From Luidia sarsii (taxonomy: Eukaryota; Echinodermata; Asteroidea; Paxillosida; Luidiidae), in the NCBI GenBank assembly GCA_949987565.1, contig OX465102.1, positions 9,554,212 through 9,618,211 of the forward strand: a stretch of DNA of 64,000 bases, written 5' to 3'. Positions 35,501-38,500 of this stretch are shown here, piece by piece (the first letter of the stretch is position 1; the number at the start of each line of letters is the position of its first letter). The notes under the pieces are model-generated. The model ran no database searches and was not told the DNA's origin. It worked only from the letters and a program-made list of their open reading frames with translations. The position numbers and the translations under genes are program-made.

Positions 35501-38500
35501 GCAAACTTTTTTCAGCTCCATGATTCTACTTTCACACGCAACCCAACCACGTGTTATTGCGCAATCTATCTATCGTGCAACGTAAATCGCTCCCAACTTC
35601 CGTTGGTACCCGTTGTTTAGTACAGCCAGCGATGTCCAAGATTCACTGGTACCCACAGAGGAAAAGTTCGTTGACATGAAACTGCGCAATGTTTAGCTGG
35701 CAGTGCGCACGGTACGGTGAAGCTTCCAAGATATGTGTGCTGCACACAACAGTGCTAACGGCCAGCGCTGGCCGGCAGTCCGATCAGCCCAACTAACCCG
35801 TCGGCCGAAAGGGCCGCACGGCAGCAATGTGCTATAAAAGGGCACAGCAATTCGTTGCAGTGAAAATCCTGCAAATATGTGACCCGGCACAGCGACATGA
35901 GGAATATCCCACCAAAACACTTTTCCAGTAAACAACGCCTGAAGTCAAAGTACATTTGTATCTTCTCAATTCGATTAAAAATCAATTTTTGTTATTTTGT
36001 ATTTTTGGAAAGTTAATGTATTGGAAGATGTTATGTCCTAAGGATTTTTCCGAAATCCGTCTTTAAATGTTGAAAAAACAAGGATTTCGGGGGGGGGGGG
36101 GTGTTTGTGTACTGTTTTCATGAAAATGCCTTTTAGAATGGCCGCTTTCGAGGAGTTAGAATGTTGATACTATATTGTGTTTGGTACCAAATGAACGAGC
36201 GAAGTCCCCTTGTACTATTTACAACAAAGTTTCACACGGAAATAATTTTGATATCATTTGAAAGCTAATGGTATACTCTTTCACATCATTAGAAAATCTC
36301 AAAATCTCAAAAGCGGGGGTTATTCCTCATTATGCTGTGCCGGGTCACATATAAGGACACTGCGGCAATTGGTGAGAGCATGACGGCAATTGCCGTCGTT
36401 GCCGTCGTGAATTTGGCAGGCGGTAAACTTTTCAATTTCAGAGAAATACAAAATAATGGCATGCCCACGAAGTGGTGTTTTTCAAATCCCAACAGCGCGT
36501 CATCCGGCCGTAGGAATTCATTCGAGTGTGATTTGGCTGCATGAAATTGAAAAGCACCGCGACAGGGCAGGGACGCATCACTCTTGTGCCATGAAAGGTT
36601 GTGATTGGACAATCACCACGTGAGCGGCGCATCCGTGTTGTATGTATGTAGTTGAACAGGCAACCGGCAGCCGCGGCACACACAGCTATAGTACCGACGC
36701 ACAAAGCCACCTCCTTTGCTAAGCGGTCACCACATTGGCTTGATCAAATGGAGAGTTCCTTTGATTTGACCGGCGGAGCTAAAGTGTTTCCGGAAAGACA
36801 GCTTTCGGAGCAACGTTTGAAAAATAAAAATGACCCAGATCACGTCAATTATACTTTGATAAACAGTAGGCCCTAAGTTTCGTTTTAACGTTTAGAAAAA
36901 TCTCTAAACGGATTTGTTCATTTGTTCGTTTAAACATGCAATCTTAGGCCGTGTCAAATGGGCTTCAAGAGCTATGGCTAGGGCTATTGTCTTCGCATCT
37001 CCGTGTATTTCCAATACGGGGATGACCTAAACTTAGCTCTAGACGCCCGTTTCAGACACGGCCTTACATTGGGTGGGTTTGTAGTTCCTGGTACCCTGCA
37101 GGGCATGGAGGTGGGGAGAAAGTGTTAGGCTGTGTCCGAAACGGGCGTCTAGAGCTAGGTCTAGGTCTTCTCCATAAGGAAATACACGGAGATGCGAAGA
37201 CAATAGCCCTAGCCGTAGGTCTGGAAGCCAGTTTCAGACACAGCCTAATATCCATTGGCATGCAATCCTACACTGGGTGGGGTTGTACTCCCTAGTACCC
37301 TGCAGGGTGTGGGAGTGTAATATCCATTGGCATGCAATCCTACACTGGGTGGGGTTGTACTCCCTGGTACCCTGCAGGGTGTGGGAGTGTAATATCCATT
37401 GCCATGCAATCCTACACTGGGTGGGGTTGTACTCCCTGGTACCCTGCAGGGTGTGGGGAAAGTGTAATATCCATTGCCATGCAATCTTACACTGGGTGGG
37501 GTTGTACTCCCTGGTACCCTGCAGGGTGTGGGGAAAGTGTAATATCCATTGCCATGCAATCTTACACTGGGTGGGGTTGTACTCCCTGGTACCCTGCAGG
37601 GTGTGGGAGGAGTGTAATATCCATTGCCATGCAATCTTACACTGGGTGGGGTTGTAGTCCCTGGTACCCTGCAGGGTGTGGGGGAGTGTAATATCCATTG
37701 CCATGCAATCCTACACTGGGTGGGGTTGCACTCCCTGGTACCCTGCAGGGTGTGGGAGGAGTGTAATATCCATTGCCATGCAATCTTACACTGGGTGGGG
37801 TTGTACTCCCTGGTACCCTGCAGGGTGTGGGAGGAGTGTAATATCCATTGCCATGCAATCTTACACTGGGTGGGGTTGTAGTCCCTGGTACCCTGCAGAG
37901 TGTGGGGGGAGTGTAATATCCATTGCCATGCAATCTTACACTGGGTGGGGTTGTAGTCCCTGGTACCCTGCAGGGTGTGGGAGGAGTGTAATATCCATTG
38001 CCATGCAATCTTACACTGGGTGGGGTTGTACTCCCTGGTACCCTGCAGGGTGTGGGAGGAGTGTAATATCCATTGCCATGCAATCCTACACTGGGTGGGG
38101 TTGCACTCCCTGGTACCCTGCAGGGTGTGGGAGGAGTGTAATATCCATTGCCATGCAATCTTACACTGGGTGGGGTTGTACTCCCTGGTACCCTGCAGGG
38201 TGTGGGAGGAGTGTAATATCCATTGCCATGCAATCTTACACTGGGTGGGGTTGTAGTCCCTGGTACCCTGCAGAGTGTGGGGGGAGTGTAATATCCATTG
38301 CCATGCAATCTTACACTGGGTGGGGTTGTAGTCCCTGGTACCCTGCAGGGTGTGGGAGGAGTGTAATATCCATTGCCATGCAATTTTAGGTTTCCGTCAC
38401 ATCTATCTTTTTTTTCATCAGGCATCGGGCAAAGCACTGATGAGCACTCAGTGTTTATCAAGTCAAGCAGGGCAAACCTTCTCGTCAACGCAAACATCAT

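Follow-up and report, generated by a model that had tools for sequence, protein, structure and literature searches.

In the window, i.e. the whole stretch of 64,000 nucleotides analysed here, the intron between exons 2 and 3 of the HARS gene contains a 75-bp minisatellite, whose unit is a copy of the gene's own boundary between this intron and exon 3. We consider it likely that the array is a mirage minisatellite, i.e. that the exon edge was duplicated beside exon 3, amplified, split and pushed away, and that the array is now removed together with the intron. Duplication of the exon boundary followed by tandem amplification had been proposed by a sequence-only reading of the window, and it is still the best explanation of the locus, as the similarity extends beyond ctgcag and the matches are confined to HARS.

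The host gene, the array and the exon-3 edge

The joined HARS exons of the window encode 458 aa, which exhibit 88% identity to HisRS of Acanthaster planci and Patiria miniata, 85% to that of Asterias rubens, 80% to those of one sea urchin and one crinoid, and 75-76% to those of Branchiostoma; two vertebrate entries have higher bit scores but lower identity or coverage, i.e. 65% identity over 91% and 81% over 53%. These values point to a sea star as the host, and amphioxus was rejected on the same grounds. All these exons lie on the minus strand. The cytosolic-type exon 1 (41845-41747) was found by tblastn (best E 1e-11), and exon 2 (38586..38675), recognized from the sequence, its translation and tblastn with sea star HARS, comprises 30 codons, ends with FVLKTPK and has the donor AAG/GTAAAT. 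Exon 3 (34478..34695), which ends with RYDLT, was identified by Pfam (PF13393, E 2.7e-12) and tblastn, and further exons follow down to a short final one (23595-23545), detected by tblastn with E of 0.001 to 0.07. The donor of exon 3, ACC/GTATCC (34472-34480), is weak, with a score of -2.6 according to donor weights that had not been fitted to sea stars. A putative second first exon, mitochondrial-type and starting with MALTWTK, was noticed at 39728-39830, with a weak match to a crinoid protein (E 0.27); HARS may thus possess two alternative first exons, one cytosolic-type and one possibly mitochondrial-type. Two tRNA-Asn-like sequences reported by ARAGORN on the minus strand, one upstream of HARS exon 2 (39510-39582) and the other at 8853-8927, are perhaps tRNA-derived SINEs. 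No Pfam match was obtained for seven other long ORFs of the window.

The intron between exons 2 and 3 extends on the minus strand from 38585 to 34696. Within it, on the same strand, TRF reports a minisatellite at 37246..38388 (period 75, 15.3 copies, 96% matches), which comprises 15 full units, in agreement with its earlier placement between exon 2 (38586) and exon 3. The extent first given, 36936..38390, needs to be narrowed: only 37246-38388 is the array proper, and 36936-37245 contains a further unit (unit 16) with two dispersed elements. When the array was split by hand, 12 units were found to be 75 bp long, one 74 bp and two 72 bp, in addition to the 16th, broken-up unit. Each unit is composed of a linker, ATGGCAATGGATATTACACT, a short pyrimidine tract, TGCAG, nine codons that specify GTR(D/E)(Y/C)NPTQ, and a donor-like GTAAG or GTAGG within the terminal TGTAAG (10 of the 15 units) or TGTAGG (5/15); the text reads GCATGGCAATGGATATTACAC (GCATGCC in unit 15), the short tract, CTGCAG and GGTACCAGGGASTRCAACCCCACCCAG (with one change in unit 15). 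The previous description of the unit as intron text, an acceptor and GTR(D/E)YNPTQ, all matching the real edge, therefore stands in outline, except that two units encode GTRECNPTQ and that the tract is in most units 9 nt shorter than in the real edge (10 nt in one and 12 nt in two, as calculated from the unit lengths). These codon changes, D to E and Y to C, were acquired after copying and without coding constraint. Units 1-4 are identical, letter for letter, to units 6-9 at an offset of 375 bp, as expected from a recent block duplication. The array exhibits concerted evolution with a divergent unit at its edge, unit 16 being the most different of all (the mismatch counts are upper bounds). 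Counted from the first decoy acceptor, its reading frame stays open for as many as 365 codons, in our view as a side effect of the lack of stops in the unit; among 7990 candidate proteins scored, none matched its translation at E 0.001.

The source of the unit is the real boundary between the intron and exon 3, whose first nucleotide is 34695 (34669..34741, minus strand). In a blastn comparison the unit aligned with 34741-34669 over 73 bp at 83.6% identity (E 7e-16). The local alignment score of unit 1 against this edge is 88, whereas 500 letter shuffles reached no more than 25; another unit scored 83, and the best of 2000 dinucleotide shuffles only 35. The likeness, previously noted by eye, thus reaches far beyond ctgcag and well above shuffled sequences. 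The part common to the unit and the edge comprises ATGGCAATGGATATTACACT, the pyrimidine tract and TGCAG, followed by exactly nine codons, up to CCACCCAG, after which exon 3 continues with ATGGCC and the units with TGTAAG or TGTAGG. A search of the whole assembly (471 Mb; 470,920,150 bases in 227 contigs) with two units, in which very common words were skipped and 2/2 candidates were scored, returned ten matches, and all ten are in this HARS intron, where they correspond to the array, unit 16 and the exon edge. A genome-wide satellite or dispersed repeat is ruled out by this search, as no copies were found at other loci; the possibility, raised earlier, that the unit is a genome-wide repeat unrelated to HARS has thereby lost its ground.

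The direction of copying was from the exon to the array. Of the 120 HisRS proteins among the matches listed, 106 have the motif G.RDY.P.QM (two of them twice), hence exon 3 is older and the array is the copy. The exact 10-residue string of exon 3 occurs in none of the same 120 proteins, one of which has another T form, GTRDYTPTQM; NPTQ is encoded by the same codons in the array, which was accordingly copied from the exon of this lineage. With respect to NPTQ in exon 3 itself (34681-34686), 119 of the 120 matched HisRS proteins either have no T at this position or lack the motif, and the T is found also in the array.

Counting arrays with units of at least 20 bp and at least 2.5 copies, we found 36, of which 22 are in a 200-kb block and 14 in the window, where they occupy 5.6% and 11.7% of the sequence, respectively; a same-strand match outside the array but within 8 kb was detected for 5/22 block arrays and 8/14 window arrays (with the low-complexity filter on). 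Only the 75-bp array among the 14 of the window matches a HARS edge. We also compared pieces of eight other window arrays with 12 HARS splice edges and obtained scores of at most 28, the value of 28 being due to a 33-bp array compared with a donor stretch that overlaps it and all the remaining ones being at most 20; a similar origin of other window arrays was accordingly rejected, as among nine arrays only the 75-bp one matched any of the 12 edges. The 33-bp minisatellite (32156-32836) starts about 50 bp into the HARS intron that follows exon 4, and its unit revealed no exon sequence. A minisatellite of ten 50-bp copies (38750-39265) is located just upstream of exon 2, which is thus flanked by arrays on both sides. 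Directly upstream of the 75-bp array, on the minus strand, there is a dispersed repeat (38403..38550), which was matched 23 times elsewhere in the window and in a 260-kb genome sample; such repeats of about 90-97 bp, single or in short tandems, were seen at 38403-38550, 11673-11976, 15840-16114, 28671-28825 and 51829-52079.

Unit 16 and the stretch between array and exon 3

Unit 16 (36936..37263, minus strand) is divergent, retains the long pyrimidine tract of the exon edge, and is split by two dispersed elements. Past unit 15 the text reads GCATGCCAATGGATATTA, element 1, CACTTTCTCCCCACCTCCATGCCCTGCAGGGTACCAGGAACTACAAACCCACCCAATGTAA, element 2 and GATTGCATG. Unit 16 has the linker TGTAAGATTGCATG in common with the array and the long tract CTCCCCACCTCCATGCC in common with the exon-3 edge (89.5% identity over 57 bp in blastn), so that this unit looks like an intermediate between the two. 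Element 1 (37127..37246, minus strand), recognized from its inverted arms and genome matches, is MITE-like, palindromic and about 120 bp long, and is inserted in GATATTA of unit 16 with TTA and TAA at its flanks. Element 2 (36946..37064, minus strand), also MITE-like and assigned to the same family from its genome matches, inverted arms and flanks, is inserted in GTAAG with TAA on both sides. The two have genome matches at no fewer than 41 other places (40 of 1530 candidates were scored), on both strands, starting within about 11 bases of the element edges. The TAA/TTA flanks are reminiscent of MITEs of the PIF/Harbinger type.

The end of unit 16 (GCATG) is separated from the start of the exon-edge homology (ATGGCAATGG) by a 2.2-kb stretch (34745..36935, minus strand), delimited by the phase of its two ends. 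These ends agree in their phase within the unit and overlap by 3 bp (ATG), an agreement estimated to arise by chance in about 7 of 75 cases, and the array, which is now 2.2 kb away from exon 3, becomes in-phase and contiguous with it when the stretch and the two elements are skipped. This arrangement suggests that the stretch consists of one or more later insertions, and that the array was probably contiguous with exon 3 at first, to become separated from it afterwards. Inside the stretch there is a dispersed element (35870..36352, minus strand) bounded by 36-nt inverted ends, with partial copies at two loci of the 260-kb sample (L011 and L025). It is the only part of the 2.2 kb that recurs in that sample, a point against this reading, and the remainder has no match there or in the rest of the window.

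That most of the stretch is without such a match would fit another course of events, in which an event such as template switching or gap repair placed a copy of the exon-3 edge 2.2 kb upstream in a single step; the copy would have been amplified at that site, and the array would never have touched exon 3. We consider this distant copying unlikely, although not negligibly so: the in-phase ends with the ATG overlap follow from contiguity and not from copying over a distance, and the same is true of the linker, which recurs in unit 16, in the array and, in the form TAAAATTGC, at the left flank of unit 1.

The history that we prefer, duplication beside exon 3, would have begun with a tandem duplication, at the exon, of a segment in which the 3' end of the HARS intron is followed by the initial 27 nt of exon 3. 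One copy, its pyrimidine tract shortened by 9 nt, would then have been amplified to about 15 near-identical copies by turnover of repeat units, either unequal exchange or replication slippage. The two MITE-like elements and the 2.2-kb stretch would later have split the oldest copy and moved the array off exon 3. In the present-day gene, the array would leave the transcript as a part of the intron, with the real exon-3 acceptor in use.

Decoy splice sites

As anatomy, the earlier claim that a series of decoy acceptors precedes the real acceptor in the transcript is correct, with 16 copies in 36930-38400. We scored 199 AGs of the intron with an acceptor matrix that, like the donor weights, had not been fitted to sea stars: the real exon-3 site scored 8.27, whereas the scores of the sixteen decoys ranged from 6.95 to 9.91, 13 of them being at or above the real site. 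Three AGs outside the array, at 35374 (the highest, 10.5), 38554 and 36536, also scored at least as high as the real acceptor, which indicates that this matrix discriminates poorly; by the acceptor alone, the real site and the decoys are not told apart with it. Each unit has the makings of a 28-nt pseudo-exon, composed of the acceptor, nine codons plus T, and the donor, the latter with a score of 5.5 (3.0 for the GTAGG form) compared to -2.6 for the donor of exon 3 (by the same weights). On translation, inclusion of one pseudo-exon copy leads to an early stop and of two to a frame shift, while three are in frame, and a decoy used directly, without its donor, leads to a stop before exon 3 in 16/16 cases. 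Most of these products would be detrimental to a housekeeping gene, and we therefore expect that the array is spliced out whole and that the real exon-3 acceptor is used.

The 13 decoys that equal or exceed the real acceptor sit awkwardly with the assumption that the decoys are silent. Together with the unit donor, which scores above that of exon 3 by these weights, and with the in-frame outcome of three copies as opposed to an early stop for one and a shifted frame for two, they could speak for a working splicing device, in which inclusion of 28-nt pseudo-exons would lower or alter the HARS output according to copy number. We regard such a device as improbable. In terms of exon definition, 28 nt is short, which counts against it, as does the lack of a protein match to the array frame at E 0.001 among the 7990 scored candidates; amphioxus arrays of similar architecture are reported not to disturb splicing (PMC3087553, PMC3902484). 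It is very improbable that the array acts as a splice sink, whose 16 acceptor/donor-like pairs would compete with exon 3 so that array length would tune HARS output or isoforms; if true, triplets of pseudo-exons could insert 28 in-frame residues immediately ahead of the catalytic core of HisRS.

Misassembly, which would have produced the copy number or the array itself, is highly improbable as well: an exact duplication of a 300-bp block is a pattern that assemblers can mishandle, but the units differ in an ordered way, unit 16 carries insertions, and the contig is 31.9 Mb long. The plentiful arrays of the 200-kb block and the window notwithstanding, we can practically dismiss an unrelated minisatellite that landed in HARS and resembles the exon edge by chance, or donated sequence to it, as this was already refuted by the search of this assembly (very common words skipped), with 10/10 matches in HARS, and as the likeness is far above shuffles and the motif is found in 106/120 HisRS proteins.

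Related repeats in other animals

Tandem repeats that span an intron-exon boundary of the host gene have been described as mirage minisatellites in amphioxus, in the globin genes BflGb6 and BflGb9, in Adh3, in troponin C (TnC) and, less perfectly, in PGBD5; regular splicing is reported to be undisturbed, and the units are 10-72 bp long in Adh3 and 150-160 bp in BflGb6 (PMC3087553, PMC3902484). TnC and PGBD5 were added by the second of these papers (PMC3902484). The HARS unit likewise spans the intron-exon boundary of its host gene and carries AG and GT signals, its copies are similarly homogenised with divergence at the edge of the cluster, and its size of 75 bp falls between those of Adh3 and BflGb6. 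The HARS array differs in its sea star host, in its number of about 16 copies, in its distance of 2.2 kb from the exon, and in the two MITE-like insertions. The HARS array thus probably extends an architecture already known from amphioxus to another group of hosts. Among the papers listed in a literature search whose scope mostly excluded subscription journals, we found no echinoderm case at the level of titles and abstracts, the repeats called mirage there being from cephalochordates, and none similar in passages of a paper on sea urchin repeats (PMC5103432) and of an Asterias genome paper (PMC10625585).

In human genes of segmental duplications, minisatellites have expanded at exon-intron boundaries, with altered transcripts and, as is reported, formation of new introns (PMC2812944). 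The HARS minisatellite resembles these internal tandem repeats in its expansion from an exon-intron boundary. In the human case transcripts change, whereas a change caused by the HARS array would be hypothetical. Introns are said to have been gained by tandem duplication of AG/GT proto-splice sites, an idea reportedly due to Rogers and to Gao and Lynch (2009). Each HARS unit holds an acceptor and a donor-like site, i.e. the raw material of the proto-splice-site model, but in contrast to what that model leads to, there is no sign of a fixed new exon or intron at HARS.

As the host is an echinoderm according to the similarity of its HARS, mirage arrays probably occur beyond lancelets, and boundary-spanning arrays of this kind are probably not a lancelet oddity. 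The intermediate copy and the insertions have been kept at the locus, so the order of events can be read in one sequence, from copying of the edge, to shortening of the tract, to amplification of the copy, to splitting of the array. With near-identical decoys lined up in front of the real site in a housekeeping gene, the locus also lends itself as a natural experiment on the cues, other than the acceptor itself, by which the spliceosome recognizes the real exon.
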